Translations under genes and position numbers: made by a program
Shown here: positions 34,255 to 64,000 of the stretch, one piece after another
How positions within the stretch are numbered: the stretch's first letter is position 1
Layout of the letters: every line of letters begins with the position of its first letter
Assembly: GCA_947449575.1 (NCBI GenBank)
Contig: CANFRV010000009.1
Span: 54,088 to 118,087 of the forward strand
DNA: 64,000 nt
From: Flavobacteriales bacterium
GTDB lineage: Bacteria > Bacteroidota > Bacteroidia > Flavobacteriales_D > Crocinitomicaceae
Direction: 5' to 3'
The notes under the pieces: model-generated
Databases searched by the model: none
What the model was told of the DNA's origin: nothing
What the model saw: only the letters and a program-made list of their open reading frames with translations

Positions 34255-34755
34255 ATGGAAATTGAAATATTACAACAGAAAATATATGAAATCAGAGGTC
34301 AACGAGTAATGTTGGATTATGATTTGGCGGAATTATATGAAGTTGAAACAAAATACCTTAAAAGGTCAGTGAAAAGTAATCTTAAAAGATTTCCACCTGA
34401 TTTTATGTTTGAGATTTCTAAAGAAGAATGGAATGTTTTGAGGTGCAATTTTAGCACCTCAAAAGGAAGTGGTGGTGCTAGATATTTACCTTATGCTTTT
34501 ACAGAACAAGGGTTAGCTATGTTAAGCGGAATACTTAGGTCAGACAAAGCGATTGAAGTAAATATTTCAATTATGAGAGTTTTTGTTTTTATGAGAAAAT
34601 ACGCAATATCTAATTTAGATTTGTCTCAGCAATTGAAACAACTAGAAAACCTCTATAACAAACAGTTTGATGATGTTTTCGAAGCGATAAATTATTTGAT
34701 TAAAAAAGACAATCTAGCACAACAACAAATAGAACGAAAGAAAATTGGGTTTTAG
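34255..34755 (+). CDS. ORF6N domain protein (phage-type DNA-binding)
   Basis: A 166-residue protein whose first 110 residues match the ORF6N domain: KIYEIRGQRVMLDYDLAELY, then ETKYLKRSVKSNLKRFPPDF and YLPYAFTEQGLAMLSGIL. The tail (LSQQLKQLENLYNKQFDDVF) is a short coiled-coil. ORF6N is found in phage antirepressor-like proteins and, often alone, in bacterial chromosomes. No phage structural, integrase or lysis gene is near, so it is a stand-alone accessory gene. Role unknown, probably DNA binding. Confidence 0.85.
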   Translation: MEIEILQQKIYEIRGQRVMLDYDLAELYEVETKYLKRSVKSNLKRFPPDFMFEISKEEWNVLRCNFSTSKGSGGARYLPYAFTEQGLAMLSGILRSDKAIEVNISIMRVFVFMRKYAISNLDLSQQLKQLENLYNKQFDDVFEAINYLIKKDNLAQQQIERKKIGF

Positions 34756-35794: not shown

Positions 35795-36361
35795 CTATTT
35801 GCACAAAGAATTGTATAATTTAATAGTTTCAATAAAAGGTTTTTCTCTCGTACTGAAATCACCTTTGTAATTACTTGCAAAGGCAGGACACTTCAATAAA
35901 TAAGGCTTGATAAAATTCTTTAAGTTCTTTTTATTATTAATTTTATAAAAAGTACCATCAGGTAGTTTAAGAAAAAACCTGTAAGTACCTGAAGAGCTAC
36001 CACTACTATATGTTTGATAAGCAAGGTAAACTTTTAATGGCCCATCAACAGATCTACAAGTATAACGAATATAACTATCTGGCTTATCTGCCTTTAGAGG
36101 AATTTTATCATCCGTTTGTCCATGATGATAAAATGTCTGAACATCAGGTACATTTTTTTTAATTTCAACTGGTTTACCAGTAAGATCTGTATATTTAAAG
36201 CTCTTTAAATATCCTTGTGCAGTTGTATTATAAGTTAATTCCGTACAAAATACCGTGTCAGTTTTTGTAACAAAATAATCTTTCGGCTTATTTGTTTGAG
36301 CAAATAATAAATCGCAAGAGTTTAAAAAAATGGCACTTAAAAAAATAACTTTTTGAAACAT
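35795..36361 (-). CDS. Exported protein of unknown function
   Basis: A 188-residue protein with a signal peptide (VIFLSAIFLNSCDLLFAQ) likely cut after FAQ. A cysteine lies in this region, but it is not at a good lipobox. The mature part has DYFVTKTDTVFCTELTYNTT, a repeat-free beta-rich core, and two late cysteines (LLKCPAFASNYKG, LYNSLCK). TGTYRFF-like and YKINNKKNLKNFIKPYL stretches resemble small Bacteroidota exported proteins of unknown role. It is not clearly in an operon. Confidence 0.6.
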   Translation of the reverse strand: MFQKVIFLSAIFLNSCDLLFAQTNKPKDYFVTKTDTVFCTELTYNTTAQGYLKSFKYTDLTGKPVEIKKNVPDVQTFYHHGQTDDKIPLKADKPDSYIRYTCRSVDGPLKVYLAYQTYSSGSSSGTYRFFLKLPDGTFYKINNKKNLKNFIKPYLLKCPAFASNYKGDFSTREKPFIETIKLYNSLCK

Positions 36362-36573
36362 TTTATATGTATTTTAAAAATTAAAAAAAGGCAAATATAA
36401 AAATAAGAAATAGACTATAGCTTAAAATCTTTTAAAAATAGAAATTTTAGATTTTCCCAGATAAATCAATTAACAAGCATAATCAGGATTAATTTTTTGT
36501 ACTTCTTTGATACTTCCACTTTACCACTTATCAATTGAAATATATAAGACAACTGAAGCCAAAAATAGTGCAC

Positions 36574-36602
36574 AAAAAAGCCTAGAGAAAAATCCCTAGG
36601 CT
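36574..36602 (-). terminator. Terminator of the sdh operon
   Basis: On the minus strand AGCCTAG, a 10-nt loop and CTAGGCT are followed by TTTTTTG. It lies 25 bp past the sdhB stop. Confidence 0.75.
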
Positions 36603-36626
36603 CAACTTAATGAAAATCATATAAAA

Positions 36627-37376
36627 CTATTCAGCAGAAATCATTCCTTTGAAGTATTCTCTATTCATTCTTGCAATATTATCCAAAGAAATTTCTTTTG
36701 GACATTCAACAGCGCAAGCTCCAGTGTTTGTGCAATTTCCAAACCCTTCTTCGTCCATTGTTTTAACCATGTTTAAAACACGTTCTTTTGCTTCTACTTT
36801 ACCTTGAGGTAATAATGCTAATTGAGACACTTTTGCCGCTACGTATAACATGGCAGAAGCATTGACACACGTTGCAACACATGCTCCACAACCAATACAA
36901 GTAGCAGCTTCGAATGCTTTGTCTGCATCAATTTTAGAAATTGGAATTGCATTGGCATCTACTGTGTTTCCTGAAGTGTTCACAGAAACAAATCCTCCTG
37001 AAGCCATGATACGGTCAAAAGCTCCACGATCTACTACTAAATCTTTTATAACAGGAAAAGCTTTTGCTCTCCAAGGTTCGATATAGATCGTATCTCCATC
37101 GTTAAATTTACGCATATGTAACTGACACGTTGTAACAGCTCTGTCGGGTCCATGCGCCTCTCCATTAATAAACAAAGAACACATTCCACAAATTCCTTCG
37201 CGGCAATCGTGATCAAACGCAACAGGATCTTCTCCTTTCACGATTAATTCTTCATTCAAAACGTCCATCATTTCTAAAAATGACATGTCTCCCTCAATCC
37301 CATCAATAGGGTAAGTTACCATTTGACCTTTGTCAGTTGCACTATTTTGTCTCCAGATTTTTAATGTTAATTTCAT
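36627..37376 (-). CDS. sdhB: Succinate dehydrogenase/fumarate reductase iron-sulfur subunit
   Basis: A 249-residue Fe-S subunit of respiratory complex II. The [2Fe-2S] cluster lies in [15 protein letters not shown]. The [4Fe-4S] and [3Fe-4S] clusters lie in [17 protein letters not shown] and [15 protein letters not shown]. The frame extends 17 codons upstream, but those codons are translated heptad repeats and are not part of the family; the ATG at 37376 gives [10 protein letters not shown], the normal start. sdhA should lie directly upstream; here a four-helix-bundle gene lies between them. A repeat starts 12 bp before the ATG, so ribosome access could be affected. Confidence 0.94.
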
Positions 37377-37387
37377 ATCTTTAGTTA

Positions 37388-37417
37388 TTGGGTGTTGGGT
37401 GTTAGGTGTTGGGTTAG
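37388..37417. repeat. Left inverted-repeat end of the four-helix-bundle cassette
   Basis: Four heptads in tandem: TTGGGTG, TTGGGTG, TTAGGTG, TTGGGTT. The same phrase in inverted orientation, with few changes, occurs at 37848-37881 on the other side of the four-helix-bundle gene. Confidence 0.85.
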
Positions 37418-37442
37418 ACCCACTCACACAAATCCAACTATT

Positions 37443-37808
37443 TTATACTTCAATCTTTAGTTCAATGGATTTTATTAATCCGTTTATCATTTTTCCTATC
37501 TGTTCAATTACAAGTGAGTAATTGTCTATTATTTCAGTTGAGATATATCCTAATTTATTACTTAATAATAAACAAGTTTCAGTTTCGTATAGGGAGCCAC
37601 GTGCTATTTTAAGAAAGTGAGAGTAGCTTTTAATAGATCCTCTTCCCCAACCTTCTGCAATATTTAAAGCAATAGATGAAGTAGATCTTCTAAGTTGAGA
37701 AGTTAATCCAAATTGTTCATTTGACGGAAATAATTTAGTAACAGTATAAATCTCAACTGCGAAATCCATACTCTTATTCCAAACCATTAAATCCTTAAAT
37801 GAACTCAT
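37443..37808 (-). CDS. Four-helix-bundle protein (S23 / 23S rRNA intervening-sequence type)
   Basis: A 121-residue all-helical protein. FKDLMVWNKSMDFAVEIYTV at the N-terminus, SNEQFGLTSQLRRSTSSIAL, then NIAEGWGRG and FLKIARGSLYETETCLLLSN are the four helices and conserved linkers of the S23 family (also related to Avd of diversity-generating retroelements). First described in 23S rRNA intervening sequences of Leptospira, its biochemical role is unsettled, with nucleic-acid binding favoured. It is inside the sdh operon on the same strand and flanked by inverted repeats. No reverse transcriptase or variable repeat is nearby, so a retroelement role is unlikely. Confidence 0.88.
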   Translation of the reverse strand: MSSFKDLMVWNKSMDFAVEIYTVTKLFPSNEQFGLTSQLRRSTSSIALNIAEGWGRGSIKSYSHFLKIARGSLYETETCLLLSNKLGYISTEIIDNYSLVIEQIGKMINGLIKSIELKIEV

Positions 37809-37847
37809 AAAATTTATTTTACTTTAATTGTACTATAACCTACACAG

Positions 37848-37881
37848 CCCTAAAACCGAACACCTAATCCCCAACACCCAA
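37848..37881. repeat. Right inverted-repeat end of the four-helix-bundle cassette
   Basis: Reads CACCTAAT then CCCCAACACCCAA on the plus strand. Its reverse complement is TTGGGTGTTGGG, GA, TTAGGTGTT, then CGGTTTTAG, matching the left end closely. It stops 4 bp before the sdhA stop codon. Confidence 0.8.
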
Positions 37882-37885
37882 AAAA

Positions 37886-39889
37886 TCACTTATAATTTCT
37901 CTCTACCAACTTAATCTCCTCAAACACTAATTGTTCTTTGTGTAAGATTGCTTCAGCTGGTTTTCCTGTGTATTCCCATGCCGCAACATAAGCGAAATCT
38001 TTATCGTTTCGTTTTGCTTCTCCTTCTTCCGTTTGAGATTCTTCACGGAAGTGACCACCACATGATTCAGTTCTATTTAAAGCATCTACAGCCATTAACT
38101 CTCCTAATTCTAAAAAGTCGCAAACTCTATTCGCTTTATCTAATTCTGGATTGAAAGAATCAACAGTTCCAGGGATACGAAGATCATTATAGAATTCTTC
38201 ACGTAGTTTTTGAACTTCGTTGATTGCCCATTTTAAACCTTCCTCATCGCGAGACATTCCAACTTTATCCCAGATGATTTTCCCTAAACGTTTATGGAAA
38301 TAATCCACTGATTTCGTTCCTTTGATATTCATTAAACGATCAATTCCAGCTTTTACATCTGCTTCTGCTTGAATAAATTCAGGCAATTCAGTTGAAATTT
38401 TACCGGTTCTAATTTCGTCCGCTAAATAATCAGCAATTGTATAAGGCAATACGAAATAACCATCGGCTAATCCTTGCATTAAAGCAGAAGCTCCTAAACG
38501 ATTCGCTCCGTGATCAGAAAAATTTGCTTCACCCGTTGCATAACATCCAGTAATTGTTGTCATCAAGTTGTAATCTACCCAAATTCCACCCATTGTGTAA
38601 TGCACAGCTGGATAAATCATCATCGGAGTTTTATAAGGATCTTGATCTACGATTTTATAATACATTTGGAATAAGTTACCATATTTTGCTTTAACAACTT
38701 GGGTTCCTAGTTCCATAATTTCTTCTATTGAAGCATTTTCATTGTGTGCTATTTTTGCTTTTTCACGTCCATAACGTTCAATTGCAGAGGCGAAATCCAA
38801 ATAAACAGCTTCGCCAGTCGCATTAACGCCATATCCAGCATCACATCTTTCTTTTGCAGCACGAGAAGCAACATCACGAGGAACTAAGTTTCCAAAGGCA
38901 GGGTAACGACGTTCTAAGAAGAAATCTTTATCTTCATCTTTGATATCCGTTGGTTTCATTCTTCCTTCACGAATCGCTTTTGAATCCTCTAAATTTTTAG
39001 GAACCCAAATACGTCCATCATTTCTTAATGATTCTGACATCAAAGTTAATTTTGACTGATGATCTCCAGAAACAGGAATACACGTTGGGTGTATCTGTGT
39101 ATAACAAGGATTAGCAAAGAAAGCTCCTTTTTTATGAATTTTCCATGCAGCAGTAACGTTAGAACCCATCGCATTTGTCGATAAGTAAAAAACATTTCCG
39201 TAACCACCAGAAGCTATAACCACAGCGTGTGCAGAGAATCGCTCTAATTTACCAGTAACCAAGTTACGTGCTATAATTCCTCTTGCTTTTCCATCAACGA
39301 TTACTAAATCTAGCATTTCGTGACGGGTGTGCATTTTAATTTTTCCTTTACCAATCTGACGAGACATAGCAGAATAAGCTCCTAACAATAATTGTTGCCC
39401 CGTTTGACCTTTTGCGTAAAATGTACGAGAAACTTGAGACCCTCCAAATGAACGGTTATCTAAAAGTCCTCCATATTCACGAGCAAAAGGAACGCCTTGC
39501 GCTACACATTGGTCAATAATTGAAGCTGAAACTTCCGCCAAACGGTATACGTTTCCTTCACGAGCTCTGTAATCACCCCCTTTGATAGTGTCATAGAACA
39601 AACGGAAAACTGAATCACCGTCTCCTTGGTAGTTTTTTGCAGCATTGATACCTCCTTGCGCTGCGATAGAATGTGCTCGACGCGGAGAATCTTGAAAACA
39701 GAAAGAATGAACGTTGTATCCTAATTCAGCCAAAGAAGCAGAAGCAGAACCTCCAGCTAAACCTGTACCTACAACGATAATATCTATATTTCTTTTATTT
39801 GCTGGATTTACTAAACGAATGTGATCTTTATAAGAAGACCATTTTGTGCTCAGTGCTCCAGAAGGTATTTTTGAATCTAAAACTGACAT
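37886..39889 (-). CDS. sdhA: Succinate dehydrogenase/fumarate reductase flavoprotein subunit
   Basis: A 667-residue flavoprotein of complex II. The FAD motif [20 protein letters not shown] is near residue 40 and the covalent-FAD His is in [38 protein letters not shown] and [19 protein letters not shown] are active-site stretches. It is the long Bacteroidota/Epsilonproteobacteria-type (FrdA/SdhA of type B) form. It oxidises succinate in respiration or, reversed, reduces fumarate. sdhC ends 26 bp upstream on the same strand. Its stop lies 4 bp from the inserted cassette. Confidence 0.95.
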
Positions 39890-39915
39890 AGTATAAATGT
39901 TTAAAATCTATTTAC

Positions 39916-40830
39916 TTATGAAATGAAAATATATAATGGTATAAGCGCAAATAAGGCAGGAACCACAATCGCAAAAATTATTCCGAACATCTTAATTAAG
40001 GGAGTATAGCGAGGATGACGCAAACCTAATGTTTGAAATGCAGCGGCAAAACCATGCAATAAATGGAACGATAAAACAGCCATAGATAATGTATAAAATA
40101 ATATTGCAATTAATGCATATTGATTTTTCTTTTGTCCTTGGGCATCTTTTCCAAAGAAAGTCATCACTGCTGTATGCAAATCTTTGTATCCTTCAGATAC
40201 TTTTAATTTAGACGATTTGTCATACACCATTGTTTCATGTTTAATATCGTATCTCTCTTGAGTCTCTCCAGTCTTAGGGTTTTTGTATTTGTGATCTAAA
40301 TACTCACCCTTTATTGATAAAATGTAAGATACTTCAATGTCTTCATTCACATATTCACCCGTTTGTGGATTTTGCCCAATTGGCATGTTTACTGTTTTAG
40401 TTGTTGTATGTAACTGCAAACCTCCAAAGTGCATTTTAGCCCAAAAATTTACCATGTGTGTAGCAATGAAGATTAAAATAATACTTCCTAATATCGCCAT
40501 TTTTCTTGAAGCTGATGAAGAATTAGAAGCTGCATTATCCATTGCATATTGAATAGGTCGCGCTTTTTTATTTTGAAAAGCTAAAAGAATTCCATCAATC
40601 GCATGAAATAAAATGGATAAATATGTCACATACGACATTACTTTTATTAGTGGATTATGTTGCATGAAATAAGCATATTCATTGAATGCTCTTCTTCCTT
40701 CTTCTCCTCCAGCGAATAATTGTAAATTACCTATTAGATGCCCCACCAAAAAGAGGCACAAAAACAATCCTGTAAATGCCATCCAATACTTTTTAGCAAT
40801 TGAGGATTTTAATAAAACTGACTTACTCAT
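39916..40830 (-). CDS. sdhC: Succinate dehydrogenase cytochrome b subunit (type B), with enlarged loop
   Basis: A 304-residue membrane anchor with five helices and haem-ligand His residues (VGHLIGNLQL, SILFHAIDGILL, TMVNFWAKMHF region, LSFHLLHGFAAAFQTLG). Typical Bacteroidota homologues are about 220-230 residues. The excess lies between helices three and four (about 135-237), a hydrophilic loop with two NPxTGE motifs (NPQTGEY, NPKTGET). Whether this lies outside the membrane or faces the cytoplasm is not resolved here. A CAAATTTA box (TAAATTTG) at 40860-40867 lies just upstream. Confidence 0.9.
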   Translation of the reverse strand: MSKSVLLKSSIAKKYWMAFTGLFLCLFLVGHLIGNLQLFAGGEEGRRAFNEYAYFMQHNPLIKVMSYVTYLSILFHAIDGILLAFQNKKARPIQYAMDNAASNSSSASRKMAILGSIILIFIATHMVNFWAKMHFGGLQLHTTTKTVNMPIGQNPQTGEYVNEDIEVSYILSIKGEYLDHKYKNPKTGETQERYDIKHETMVYDKSSKLKVSEGYKDLHTAVMTFFGKDAQGQKKNQYALIAILFYTLSMAVLSFHLLHGFAAAFQTLGLRHPRYTPLIKMFGIIFAIVVPALFALIPLYIFIS

Positions 40831-54057: not shown

Positions 54058-55638
54058 ATGTTTACTTTATTAATTATCGTTATTGTCATAGCCTTACTCT
54101 TTGATTTGGTAAACGGTTTTCATGATGCAGCAAACTCGATTGCGACGGTTGTTGCTACGAAAGTTCTGTCTCCATTTCAAGCAGTTATTTGGGCAGCCAC
54201 TTTTAATATAATAGCTTTTTGGATTTTCGATATGAGTGTTGGTAATACCGTCGCAAAAACTGTAGATAACAACGCCATCGATTTATGGGTAATTCTTGCG
54301 GGTCTTATTTCTGCTACAATTTGGAATCTATTTACTTGGAAATTAGGTATCCCTTCTTCTTCTAGTCATACTTTAATAGGCGGATTTGCTGGTGCAGCAG
54401 TCGCTCATGGTGGATTTGATGTAATTGCCACAAGTGAAATTATTAAAGTGATTGCTTTTATTTTTCTTGCTCCATTTATCGGAGGTATTATCGCTTTTGT
54501 AATTGCATTAATTACGATGAGTAGAAAGGTTTTTTTGAAATTCTTTATTGTCTTAGCGGGTTCAGTTGGCGTGTATTTTGTGATGGATTATATGGTTGAA
54601 TTCATGGACATGAAACCTATCATGATGAACATTGTTTTAGTAATGTTAATCATCTTTATTCTTGCTTTCATCTACTATATGGTTGTTCATGGAAGAAGGC
54701 AAACAGCCATGAAAGAATCAAACATGTATAAAAGATTGCAATTACTTTCTTCTGCTGCTTTCTCTTTAGGTCATGGCGGGGCAGATTCTCAAAAAGTAAT
54801 GGGGATTATTTGTGCGGCATTGATGGTCTATGGAAACTATGCGCGAAATCCTGCACATTCAGAAAAAGTAAATGAAAATTTCAAAATATCTGAATTAATG
54901 CAAATTGAACATACGAATGGTGAAGGGAAAAAATCAAAATTTAAACCTGAATATATCACTGTAAACAATGTTCTTTTATATAAAGATGGCGATAAGATTA
55001 AAGACGCAACTTCACAAGAAGTAGTGTTTGATAAAAACGGGAAATTAAATGCATCTTACAAAAATGCACCAGAATTTGAAAAAACGAAAATTCCAAAAAA
55101 ATTCGATAAATTATTAATCTATACAAAAGGACATGATATTTATGATGCAAAAACAGATGTGAAAATTTTTGCTGATCATGAATTAAATGCCAAATATTCT
55201 AATGCTGGAGTTTTTGCTACTTGTGTCAATAAAGGAGAATTAAAATCTGGATACAAAATAAAAACAAAAGTTAATTCTGATACGATGCCTTTCTGGATCG
55301 CTTTTGGATGTTATTTCATGATTGGAATAGGAACATTATTTGGCGGTTGGAAAATCGTTAAAACAATGGGGTCTAAAATTACGAAAGTTAATGCATTAGA
55401 AGGTGTTTGTGCTGAAACAGCAGGAGCGCTAACCTTATTTGTAGTTAGTAATTTAGGGATTCCTGTTTCAACTACACATACAATTACAGGAGCAATTATA
55501 GGTGTGGGAGCAACAAAAAGATTGAGCGCCGTTCGATGGGGCGTTACTATCGGTTTACTTTGGGCTTGGGTTCTTACCATTCCAGTCAGTGGATTATTAG
55601 CTGCTGGTATTTATTATGCTATTTGCTTATTTAAATGA
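54058..55638 (+). CDS. pitA: Inorganic phosphate transporter (PiT family) with repeated cytoplasmic insert
   Basis: A 526-residue phosphate permease. Two copies of the PiT signature are seen: DLVNGFHDAANSIATVVATK near the N-terminus, and LEGVCAETAGALTLFVVSNL, then GIPVSTTHTITGAIIG, near the C-terminus. The loop between them (about residues 265-410) is long and hydrophilic and contains two related 48-residue units (LLYKDGDKIKDA with LNASYKNA, LIYTKGHDIYDA with LNAKYSNA). PiT proteins use H+ or Na+ to import metal-phosphate. The DUF47 partner precedes it. A hairpin follows the stop. Confidence 0.92.
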   Translation: MFTLLIIVIVIALLFDLVNGFHDAANSIATVVATKVLSPFQAVIWAATFNIIAFWIFDMSVGNTVAKTVDNNAIDLWVILAGLISATIWNLFTWKLGIPSSSSHTLIGGFAGAAVAHGGFDVIATSEIIKVIAFIFLAPFIGGIIAFVIALITMSRKVFLKFFIVLAGSVGVYFVMDYMVEFMDMKPIMMNIVLVMLIIFILAFIYYMVVHGRRQTAMKESNMYKRLQLLSSAAFSLGHGGADSQKVMGIICAALMVYGNYARNPAHSEKVNENFKISELMQIEHTNGEGKKSKFKPEYITVNNVLLYKDGDKIKDATSQEVVFDKNGKLNASYKNAPEFEKTKIPKKFDKLLIYTKGHDIYDAKTDVKIFADHELNAKYSNAGVFATCVNKGELKSGYKIKTKVNSDTMPFWIAFGCYFMIGIGTLFGGWKIVKTMGSKITKVNALEGVCAETAGALTLFVVSNLGIPVSTTHTITGAIIGVGATKRLSAVRWGVTIGLLWAWVLTIPVSGLLAAGIYYAICLFK

Positions 55639-55687
55639 TTGATGTTTAATGGTGGATGAAATCAAACATCCATCATTAAACATCCAA
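55639..55687. repeat. Long imperfect hairpin between pitA and tadA
   Basis: TTGATGTTTAATGGTGGATG pairs with an inverted copy at 55667-55687 (one bulge, one mismatch) over an 8-nt loop. It lies between convergent genes and may act as a terminator or be a REP-like repeat; no T tract directly follows. Confidence 0.5.
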
Positions 55688-55697
55688 TATTAGTATA

Positions 55698-61843: not shown

Positions 61844-64000
61844 ATGAAAAAATTCACTCTTTTATCTTTTTTCCTTCTATTTCTTTCTTGTCATTTATTT
61901 TCTCAAGCGAAATTAGATTATTCTTCCAAGTGGTTTTTAGGAATAAATGTCGGTGGAACTTGGCAAACAACAGATGTGCAAAATAAATCCAATGCTGGTT
62001 ATGGTTATGGACTTACGTTAGGTAAAGCATTCAATTATGATTACGGAAAAAGAATCAGTTTTGATCTTCGTGGCAGATATCTAAGAGGTTTTTGGTATGG
62101 ACAAAATACTGATTCTACATCTATTAGCACTTCATATTCAGGTGTATTATCTCAAGAAGCAACCAATTATAAAGATTCAATTGGCTTTTCAATAAATAAT
62201 TTTCAGACAGATCTGCATCGTTTGGCAATTGAGCTCGTAATTCACGCTAACGGTCTAAAAGAGCGCACTAATTGGGATCCTTATATTTTTGGAGGAATTG
62301 GGGTTACGTGGCATCAAACCTACGGTAATTTAACAAATAATGGTCAACTGTATGATTATAAGGGGCTAACAGCGATTAATTCTTCTACTATCTCCTCTCT
62401 TTTGGATGCTACTTACGATACAACTTTAGATGGTAGTCAAAAAACAACTTATAGATCGACTCTTATGCCGAGTTTAGGATTTGGAATTGGTTATCAATTA
62501 ACAAAAGGAGTTTCAATAGGTTTAGAACACAAAACAACTTTTACGGGTTTGGATGATTTTGATGGTGTTGTGGCGGCAAGCAAATACAAACAAGATATTT
62601 ATCATTACACGAGTGGATATATTAAATTTCAATTAGGCGGTGAAAAAAAACCAAAAAATGAAATCGATCAAGTACAACTTCCAGCTCCTGCTGCAGTAGA
62701 GATTGTAAATCAATTGCCATTGGTGACTTTTGTAAACCCTTCTGCAACCAACACCGTCGTTAACTCACCAAATTATACAATCATCGCAGATGTAAAGTAC
62801 AATATTAGCGGAAGGGAATATATCCAATTTAAACAAAATGATGTATCATCTAATAATTTCACCTACAATACTGCTACCGAAAGATTAGAAAGTAATATTG
62901 TTTTAAATGAAGGCCAAAATTTAATTTATATTACGGCTCAAAATACAATTGGATCAGCTTGGAATTCAACTATTGTCATCTATAAAAAAGAACTTGGTTC
63001 ACCTCCTGTCGTGACTATCAGTAGTCCAAACACTACTCAAATTACAGTAAATAATCCTAACTATGTTCTAACTTCGAAAATTTTAAATGTGAAAGATGGT
63101 AGTCAAATTACGTTGCTTGTAAATGGCCAAAATCGTACTGATTTTACCTATACTCCTTCTACGACGATTATGTCTGCGCCTCTAACGCTGAAGGAAGGGA
63201 ATAATACGATTGTAATAAAAGGTACAAATCAATTTGGAATAGACAGTAAAAACACGACGATCCTCTATCAAAAACCGATTGTTGTTAATCCTCCGGTAGT
63301 AACATTCATAACACCAAATATTGACCCAATTACTTCACAAACTTCTTCCTATAATGTAAGTGCAACGGCTCTTAATGTAGCTGCAGCAAGTGGAATTCAA
63401 GTGAAATTAAATGGAATCAATGTCACTAATTTTGCGTTCAATTCCTCTAGCTCATTGGTTTCATTCCCTGCTAATTTAATAGAAGGTGCAAACACTATCA
63501 ACATCACAGGAACAAATACTGCAGGAACAGATACTGAAATTCAAACCATAAATTTCCAGAAACCTGTAACTATTCTTCCTCCGGTGATAACATTCATAAC
63601 ACCAAATATTGACCCAATTACTTCGCAAACTTCTTCCTATAATGTAAGTGCAACGGCTCTTAATGTAGCTTCAGCAAGTGGAATTCAGGTAAAATTAAAT
63701 GGAATCAATATCACTAATTTTGCGTTCAATTCCTCTAACTCATTGGTTTCATTTCCTGCTAATTTAATAGAAGGTGCAAACACTATCAACATCACAGGAA
63801 CAAATACTGCAGGAACAGATACTGAAATTCAAACCATAAATTTCCAGAAACCTGTCACTATACTTCCTCCGGTGGTAACATTCATAACACCAAATATTGA
63901 CCCAATTACTTCGCAAACTTCTTCCTATAATGTAAGTGCAACGGCTCTTAATGTAGCTTCAGCAAGTGGAATTCAGGTAAAACTAAATGGACTCAACGTC
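61844..64000 (+). CDS. Outer-membrane barrel protein with tandem Ig-like repeats (truncated by window edge)
   Basis: An open frame of 719 codons from the ATG at 61844 to the window end, so the gene is cut off on the right. A signal peptide (LLSFFLLFLSCHLFSQ) leads into an outer-membrane-like barrel (about residues 25-270: WFLGINVGGTWQTTDVQN, YDYGKRISFDLRGRYLRGFW, YIFGGIGVTWHQTYGNL, IGYQLTKGVSIGLEHKTTF). A linker (KNEIDQVQLPAPAAVEI) is followed by tandem Ig-like units of exactly 96 residues. Units start near residues 294, 390, 486, 582 and 678; the last three are nearly identical. It is likely a surface protein with a barrel anchor. Confidence 0.85.
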   Translation, partial: MKKFTLLSFFLLFLSCHLFSQAKLDYSSKWFLGINVGGTWQTTDVQNKSNAGYGYGLTLGKAFNYDYGKRISFDLRGRYLRGFWYGQNTDSTSISTSYSGVLSQEATNYKDSIGFSINNFQTDLHRLAIELVIHANGLKERTNWDPYIFGGIGVTWHQTYGNLTNNGQLYDYKGLTAINSSTISSLLDATYDTTLDGSQKTTYRSTLMPSLGFGIGYQLTKGVSIGLEHKTTFTGLDDFDGVVAASKYKQDIYHYTSGYIKFQLGGEKKPKNEIDQVQLPAPAAVEIVNQLPLVTFVNPSATNTVVNSPNYTIIADVKYNISGREYIQFKQNDVSSNNFTYNTATERLESNIVLNEGQNLIYITAQNTIGSAWNSTIVIYKKELGSPPVVTISSPNTTQITVNNPNYVLTSKILNVKDGSQITLLVNGQNRTDFTYTPSTTIMSAPLTLKEGNNTIVIKGTNQFGIDSKNTTILYQKPIVVNPPVVTFITPNIDPITSQTSSYNVSATALNVAAASGIQVKLNGINVTNFAFNSSSSLVSFPANLIEGANTINITGTNTAGTDTEIQTINFQKPVTILPPVITFITPNIDPITSQTSSYNVSATALNVASASGIQVKLNGINITNFAFNSSNSLVSFPANLIEGANTINITGTNTAGTDTEIQTINFQKPVTILPPVVTFITPNIDPITSQTSSYNVSATALNVASASGIQVKLNGLNV
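63299..64000 (+). repeat. 288-bp near-identical tandem repeats inside the barrel/Ig gene
   Basis: Units begin at 63299, 63587 and 63875 (the last cut by the window edge), each 288 bp, with only about a dozen differences per copy. Two older units with the same 288-bp period precede them at about 62723 and 63011 but have diverged in sequence. The period preserves the reading frame. Confidence 0.92.

Follow-up and report, generated by a model that had tools for sequence, protein, structure and literature searches.

A heptad-armed S23 cassette between sdhA and sdhB, likely a mobile operon-dwelling relative of 23S rRNA intervening sequences

Within the window, the 64,000-nt stretch of Flavobacteriales DNA analyzed here, a gene for a four-helix-bundle (S23) protein separates sdhA from sdhB, which raises the question of what this gene and its surroundings are and how they came to occupy a core operon. 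The predicted protein scored 133.3 bits against PF05635 (cut-off 33.8) and 130.1 bits against TIGR02436, and the genes run sdhC-sdhA-S23-sdhB, all co-directional (Table 1). The S23 ORF also matched PDB entry 2gsc (XCC0516; E 3e-20) and is sequence-related to PDB 2rld; each of these two entries contains five chains. The genome to which the window belongs contains two PF05635 copies.

Table 1. Positions of the S23 cassette and neighboring genes in the window
Feature	Position	Strand	Remarks
Whole cassette	37377..37885	-	509 nt, sdhA stop codon to sdhB start codon
S23 / four-helix-bundle gene	37443..37808	-	121 aa; PF05635, TIGR02436; orientation as sdhC-sdhA-sdhB
5' arm (operon sense), adjoins sdhA stop	37854..37884	-	reads TTTTTGGGTGTTGGGGATTAGGTGTTCGGTT on minus strand
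3' arm (operon sense), ahead of sdhB	37385..37415	-	5' arm inverted; 27/31 paired; pairs in predicted RNA fold
TTGGGTG heptad array	37388..37414	+	3.9 copies
sdhB, downstream flanking gene	36627..37376	-	NCBIfam
sdhA, upstream flanking gene	37886..39889	-	NCBIfam
sdhC, upstream of sdhA	39916..40830	-	NCBIfam; orientation same as sdhA

The gene is bordered by inverted arms built of TTGGGTG heptads, each 31 nt long, with 27 of 31 positions paired and perfect blocks of 12 and 9. No shuffle reached their score of 23 when the two flanks were shuffled 5000 times, and the heptad array is the only stretch of the window with a lag-7 score of 13. Dimers of TTRGGTG, allowing up to 2 mismatches, occurred 8 times in the window against an expectation of 0.81, and seven of the eight lie in or at the two arms. 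In the predicted RNA fold these arms enclose the S23 message (z -5.65), and S23 is the sole long ORF in the operon sense between them. Neither a transposase nor a reverse transcriptase (RT) was found among the nine window ORFs run through family libraries; the ORF listing covered 33-42 kb, and a few of its small ORFs near the cassette are not among the nine. An earlier note on this DNA, made from the letters alone, had described an S23 gene splitting sdhA from sdhB, heptad inverted repeats with these two perfect blocks, and no accompanying transposase or RT; the family scores, the NCBIfam assignments of the neighbors and the shuffles bear out the first two points, and the third stands for the nine ORFs. 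A search of Rfam with window positions 36000-40000 returned no match, the S23 protein had no match in PADLOC, and a search of viral contigs with this single S23 protein found no relative.

The same junction in other genomes provides a measure of what normally separates these genes. SdhB was present in 54 of 59 genomes, the window's own included, and we examined 54 sdhA-sdhB stretches; 52 had both ends resolved, and as locus L154 duplicates L045, 51 junctions were compared, counting the window. An S23 cassette of 448-562 nt occupied 15 of these junctions, and a plain spacer of 7-57 nt was present at 26. Two more junctions contained S23 remnants (a 175-nt gap in L115, which is from the window's genus and carries the same heptads, and a 313-nt gap in L135), seven had a gap of 78-123 nt, several of them with one arm-like scar, and one (L123, genome G024) had a 651-nt gap with no S23 match and seemingly another ORF. 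Because 26 of the 51 junctions measure only 7-57 nt, the heptad ends are not ordinary sdhA-sdhB spacer, an explanation the earlier note had raised against itself; they belong to the cassette and are foreign to the normal spacer. The other finding that would have counted against it, repeats at this junction in relatives lacking the gene, appeared only in a trivial form: genome G001 keeps the repeats around a truncated S23, which is an internal deletion of the same cassette, and some S23-less junctions keep one arm-like scar. One S23 (L025, genome G051) falls in the sdh group on the S23 tree yet was clustered at another site, and the sdh junction of that genome (L137) has a 98-nt gap with an arm-like scar only.

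To describe the history of the cassette, we compared substitution rates between S23 and its flanking genes. Between the window and its closest relative compared (genome G002, locus L038), dS was 0.11 for sdhA and 0.18 for sdhB, in comparison to 1.20 for S23. Identity per 75 nt was 0.93-1.00 up to the cassette and 0.57-0.80 inside it, returned to 0.97 immediately beyond, and dipped once more, to 0.85, further on; the heptads of the two genomes differ too. Given an S23 dS of 1.2 beside flanks of 0.11 and 0.18, and the sharp edges, we conclude that the cassette at the window's junction has evidently been turned over as a unit. The opposite contrasts met in one genome: for G008 and G009, dS was 0.23 in sdhB and 2.0 in S23, and for G008 and G005 it was 0.47 in sdhB and 0.076 in S23. 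Because similarity between G005 and G008 tapers gradually into sdhB, ordinary homologous recombination may have carried the cassette in this pair. In genome G038, two cassette copies with unrelated flanks are 80.9% identical over 466 nt, a shared stretch that extends from 69 nt before the start codon to 21 nt past the stop codon. From the dS contrasts, the G008 pairs and the G038 copies, we conclude that these cassettes are gained, lost, swapped and copied.

This turnover is accompanied by a signal of descent. In a tree that included 113 S23 proteins, a single change suffices to set each junction group (sdh, fad or suf) against the other two; junction labels for this count came from neighbor clustering, and 73 of the 113 rows are unlabelled and uncounted, few of them in the suf and sdh groups, the fad group lying inside a 34-row set of which 18 rows have no fad label. 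S23s of the fad type intermingle with S23s of many other sites. S23 distance tracks SdhB distance (Mantel r 0.63, 16 loci), and together with the separate lineage of sdh-type S23s this fits partly vertical descent. Since the S23s of sdh junctions form their own lineage across families, the tree indicates that sdh-type S23s have long occupied this junction, being lost and swapped there, rather than having inserted recently and at random. The proposed insertion into the junction therefore stands in one part, as the cassette is not normal spacer, and not in the other, as the sdh S23s are a long-standing lineage.

The heptad arms recur across the S23 family. PF05635 is carried by at least 51 of the 59 genomes; 118 S23 matches yielded 116 loci after removal of identical proteins, and 113 had flanks of sufficient length for the flank tests. 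The 80 stretches taken round S23 matches represent some of the matches listed. Using 150-nt flanks and the 99th shuffle percentile as the lag-7 threshold, we observed a lag-7 signal in 70 of 226 flanks from these 113 loci, compared to the 1% expected. Of the lags tested (3-15), 7 and 14 stood out, 8 and 15 did so to a lesser degree, and the others among 3-13 reached at most 2.7%. The match between the two arms exceeded the 95th percentile of mispaired loci at 70 of 113 loci, and the other 43 failed this test. In counts that rest on simple ORF calls, the lag-7 threshold was reached in 59 of 154 S23-adjacent gaps versus 23 of 330 other gaps of those stretches; arms were matched at 70 of 111 S23 loci versus 16 of 458 ordinary genes from the same stretches; and S23 shared the direction of both neighbors at 81 loci out of 116 and ran opposite to both at 8. 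The control comparison was confined to loci with full-length, N-free flanks (111 of 116, and 77 of 80 in the named set described below). Arms had a median length of 35 nt and lay 424 nt apart, and the 5' arm, read in the S23 sense, was G-rich (G>C in 64 loci versus 4; named set, 52 versus 2). S23 itself is under purifying selection, with a dN/dS of 0.05-0.28 in 8 pairs.

As the flank tests had been designed on this first set, we reran them on a named set of 80 loci taken from a scan of genomes, of which 78 were usable; phyla were assigned by record title, Kapaibacterium (L290) was placed outside Bacteroidota, and the Flavobacteriales rows may overlap the first set. The arm test was passed by 62 of these 78 loci, comprising 35 of 44 from Bacteroidota and 27 of 34 from other groups (Clostridia, Acidobacteria, Planctomycetes, Chloroflexi, Proteobacteria, candidate phyla and others). 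Lag 7 was again the standout, in 39 of 88 Bacteroidota flanks and 43 of 68 other flanks, with lags 4-6 and 9-13 at most 3. The remark in the earlier note that heptad runs accompany this family in other Bacteroidota is thus correct, and too narrow, since the arms are not limited to that phylum. Arrays in the flanks of L031 and L322 step by 8 nt (AATCTGCC, AGGAGGGC), and lag 8 is the sole other enriched basic period.

The heptad word varies by locus (TTGGGTG, TTAGTGA, GCAGATT, GTGGACG, AATGGGC, etc.), and one word is common to both arms of a locus. We did not find a fixed terminal inverted repeat of the DNA transposon or MITE kind, as words differ among loci. The suggestion of a distinct family of small mobile elements is accordingly retained insofar as there is a cassette with its own heptad ends, and is amended in that TTGGGTG is not the end of the family. 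The mean cross-arm score was 17.5 within a locus and 11.6 between arms from the same junction in another genome (suf, 17.0). Between different sites of one genome it was 10.1 (n=280), against a background of 9.75 (n=12240; label-shuffling p=0.03). We therefore rejected the word as a property of the genome for S23-bearing loci, 10.1 being barely over the background in comparison to 17.5 within a locus. On average, an arm matched its own partner better than partners taken from other loci of that junction (0 of 20000 permutations for sdh and likewise for fad; p=0.019 for suf). Ranked by duplex energy, though, the true partner came first within its junction at no more than 6 of the 15 sdh loci, 4 of the 17 fad loci and 2 of the 9 suf loci. 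Arm mismatches of the G-U and A-C types numbered 236 versus 224 at the loosest threshold and 164 versus 131 at the strictest (p=0.06). As G-U mismatches do not clearly outnumber A-C ones, these counts give no support to RNA-level selection for arm pairing.

Hairpins of similar build also occur apart from S23. At a junction whose neighbors we take to be a ubiE-like gene and a sugar-kinase-like gene, G001 and G002 have TTGGGTG/TTAGGTA arms in a 108-nt gap, G006 and G007 have TTAGTNN-type arms (~150 nt), six of the 12 genomes of the genus have a bare 22-nt gap, G004 has 46 nt, and G000 has 1426 nt of other content plus a scar. Comparing empty and filled forms of this site by eye, we saw no target-site duplication; the edges have diverged. 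Also by eye, the hairpins of G001, G006 and G007 at this site, and that of G000 at a prfC-side site, use the word found in the sdh cassette of their own genome. G002 departs from this, as its hairpin is built of TTGGGTG and its sdh S23 has a different word, a mismatch that would fit a recent swap of the sdh cassette in that genome. The window also contains, at 55638-55690, an S23-less, nearly perfect TTTGATG/TTTAATG hairpin (z -5.07), with a phosphate transporter gene on one side and a tadA-like gene on the other. Its sequence pattern is by itself not above chance; the same word flanks the second S23 of this genome (L002). Another S23-less hairpin (L160) folded no better than shuffles (z -0.28).

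Some words are dispersed in their genomes. The dimer of GTGGACG, the word of the L110 S23 arms, gave 136 matches in G053, overlaps counted, and none in the 58 other genomes; G053, a single-contig genome, also contains CCGGACG arrays and eight S23 genes. Of 10 genomes that have a suf-type S23, 7 contain the suf word, each of them also on a non-S23 contig, versus 6 of 49 other genomes (p=4e-4). AATGGGC in G023 and GGGTAGA in G044 are present in those genomes only at their S23, and AATGGGC is dispersed in G049, where the two S23 loci examined have, by eye, other words. A rule that dispersed arrays always bear the word of the resident S23 is thus not general, G002, G023, G044 and G049 being contrary to it. 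On contig C3 of the window's genome (L003, 1420-1530), S23-less hexamers (CAACCT, CTTACT) are followed by TTRGGTG-type heptads.

Plasmids provide further copies. In a sample of 11 of 44 S23-bearing plasmid records, which includes the near-copies L313 and L315, inverted arms with a score of at least 15 within 150 nt were found at 8 copies and not at L316, L317 and L318; the long arrays that flank L316 on either side run in similar orientation. A lag-7 score of at least 10 was present in at least one flank of 10 of the 11 (L322 has period 8), and 6 of 11 exceeded the 95th percentile of mispaired pairs, a value (22.7) inflated by the kinship of L313 and L315. On plasmid AZO_p2 of Azospirillum lipoferum (L320), S23 lies within a 23S rRNA gene, bounded by heptad arms that form a predicted stem of ~25 bp (z -7.4, 20 shuffles); the plasmid collection lists no feature at this site. 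On plasmids of Anabaena sp. 90 (L312) and Pseudanabaena galeata (L316), S23 with heptad arrays lies between cas6 and cas4, with inverted arms in L312 and none within 150 nt in L316. Eighteen PF05635 genes were counted in cas loci and entered among associated functions in PMC3936711. A mobile operon cassette would explain such genes without a CRISPR role.

Intervening sequences (IVSs) of 23S rRNA genes in Leptospira and Coxiella reportedly encode S23p, as Ralph and McClelland are said to have described in 1993. Our cassette resembles a 23S IVS in that an S23p/PF05635 ORF is closed in a hairpin by complementary ends. The lengths are alike, with 428 nt given for the Coxiella IVS (PMC4990558) and 509 nt for the window cassette, and heptamers stand beside the ORF in both. 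For this IVS, PMC4990558 describes three tandem heptamers (GACAGAT) upstream of S23p, the number of which varies among strains, and excision of the IVS by RNase III; heptamers adjoin the ORF in the Azospirillum copy also. The window cassette differs in sitting between protein genes of an operon and not in rRNA, and the S23 pairs tested are under purifying selection, in contrast to the reductive evolution reported for Coxiella (PMC4990558).

By analogy with these IVSs, the cassette is likely a mobile, operon-dwelling relative of them that would be cut out at the RNA level. The fuller account we prefer, to which we give about an even chance, is of an S23 cassette of ~500 bp with locus-specific 7-nt arms that has the build of an IVS and turns over as a unit, and whose transcript likely folds so that RNase III excises the S23 message. 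An RNA-level role fits the sense orientation and the arm polarity. The operon transcript would fold with its arms paired, as the fold score of -5.65 suggests; RNase III would cut the arms and release the S23 loop, in the manner reported for the IVS of Coxiella (PMC4990558); and the flanking cistrons would remain intact because the cassette fills only the gap. An S23 pentamer may bind the hairpin and promote spread or tolerance. Both arms would be rewritten jointly, through slippage within an arm and copying between arms, and S23-less hairpins with the word of the resident S23 would be non-autonomous satellites.

Two other explanations deserve weight, each of which we regard as unlikely. Under one, the cassette is a MITE-like or foldback-like DNA element whose arms act on DNA, the enzyme being encoded elsewhere and S23 being an accessory or cargo. 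This would account for an S23-less hairpin site that is empty or filled within one genus (a bare 22-nt gap in 6 of 12 genomes), the cassette copies with unrelated flanks in G038, the lack of a clear G-U preference in the arms, and the heptad dimer with 136 matches in G053 and none in 58 other genomes. However, transposases read fixed ends and the cassette ends vary by locus, no target-site duplication was seen at the S23-less site, and the sense bias (81 versus 8) and residence in 23S rRNA point to constraints linked to transcription.

Under the other, improbable to a like degree, S23 is an ordinary resident gene of the operon, its arms are processing or attenuator hairpins, and the heptads arose by polymerase slippage, a process proposed as the origin of bacterial heptamers (Mrazek et al. 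as cited in PMC4679880 and PMC4692102). The separate grouping of sdh- and suf-junction S23s across genera, the correlation with SdhB (Mantel r 0.63) and purifying selection on S23 agree with a resident gene. This view is weakened by the window's closest pair, where S23 has a dS ~7-11 times that of sdhA and sdhB and the cassette edges are sharp, by the G008/G005 pair (S23 dS 0.076 versus sdhB dS 0.47), by the many sdhA-sdhB junctions that lack S23, and by the occurrence of S23 on plasmids, within 23S rRNA and between cas genes. That the heptads are chance or unrelated simple-sequence repeats beside S23 is very improbable: heptad arrays are present in 23 of 330 gaps that do not adjoin S23, but against 59 of 154 S23-adjacent gaps and arms at 70 of 111 loci versus 16 of 458 control genes, and with both flank tests replicated in a multi-phylum set, this explanation is refuted at the family level.

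The preferred reading, an operon-dwelling relative of 23S IVSs, has partial likenesses to other systems. DGR accessory proteins Avd and bAvd share the four-helix-bundle fold and a distant sequence relation, but S23 scored under both curated cut-offs (bAvd, 25 bits, cut-off 40, 2.7e-5; Avd, 24.1 bits, cut-off 80, 3.3e-5) and no RT was among the ORFs run. The eukaryotic foldback transposons FB, Galileo and Tetris, which are related to DNA transposases, are bounded by long inverted repeats that contain short tandem repeats and vary between copies. The cassette shares inverted ends built of short tandem subrepeats and differs in being bacterial, ~0.5 kb long, located in operon gene gaps and free of a transposase between its arms. 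A possible division into a copy that encodes the protein and satellite hairpins that share its word but lack the gene recalls RAYT and REPINs; RAYT, however, is a transposase, and the REPIN consensus is fixed. The STRR repeats of cyanobacteria are a related subject. Bacterial intergenic heptamers share the 7-nt unit and a mostly intergenic location, as described in PMC4679880 (TAACTGA in Beggiatoaceae) and PMC4692102 (GGGAATC in Xanthomonas, with 70 and 75 convergent, that is inverted, heptamer pairs in two genomes, and GGGGA(T/C)T in Nostoc). The main text of each of these two papers contains 0 mentions of S23. In the open-access literature we found no paper linking heptad arms to S23 genes in general; subscription journals lie outside this scope, and an earlier description is possible.

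We also consider a broader reading, tentatively and with slightly more doubt than belief, in which S23 cassettes form a phylum-spanning, transposase-free fold-back class. The 7-nt word would be private to an S23 lineage and rewritten in both arms, some lineages would home to one junction and some would seed S23-less satellites, and 23S IVSs and part of the bacterial heptamer repeats would be the first-noticed copies. PF05635 proteins are described as having no known function in PMC4990558. In many genomes they are annotated as mere "four helix bundle protein", and one scan contained at least 564 relatives. Tying them to an element with heptad arms, polarity and an operon habitat would explain S23 inside core operons, cas operons and rRNA, and would give a shared frame for rRNA intervening sequences and scattered bacterial heptamer repeats. 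The joint change of arms 400 nt apart, beside flanking genes that stay still, poses a question in DNA rewriting.

Two further features of the window lie apart from the cassette. Downstream of an adenine deaminase gene, positions 34255-34755 encode an ORF6N-domain protein that matches the PADLOC candidate PDC-S05 (E 5.5e-55), and a tandem array with a 288-bp unit and 96% matches spans 63289-64000, reaching the window end.
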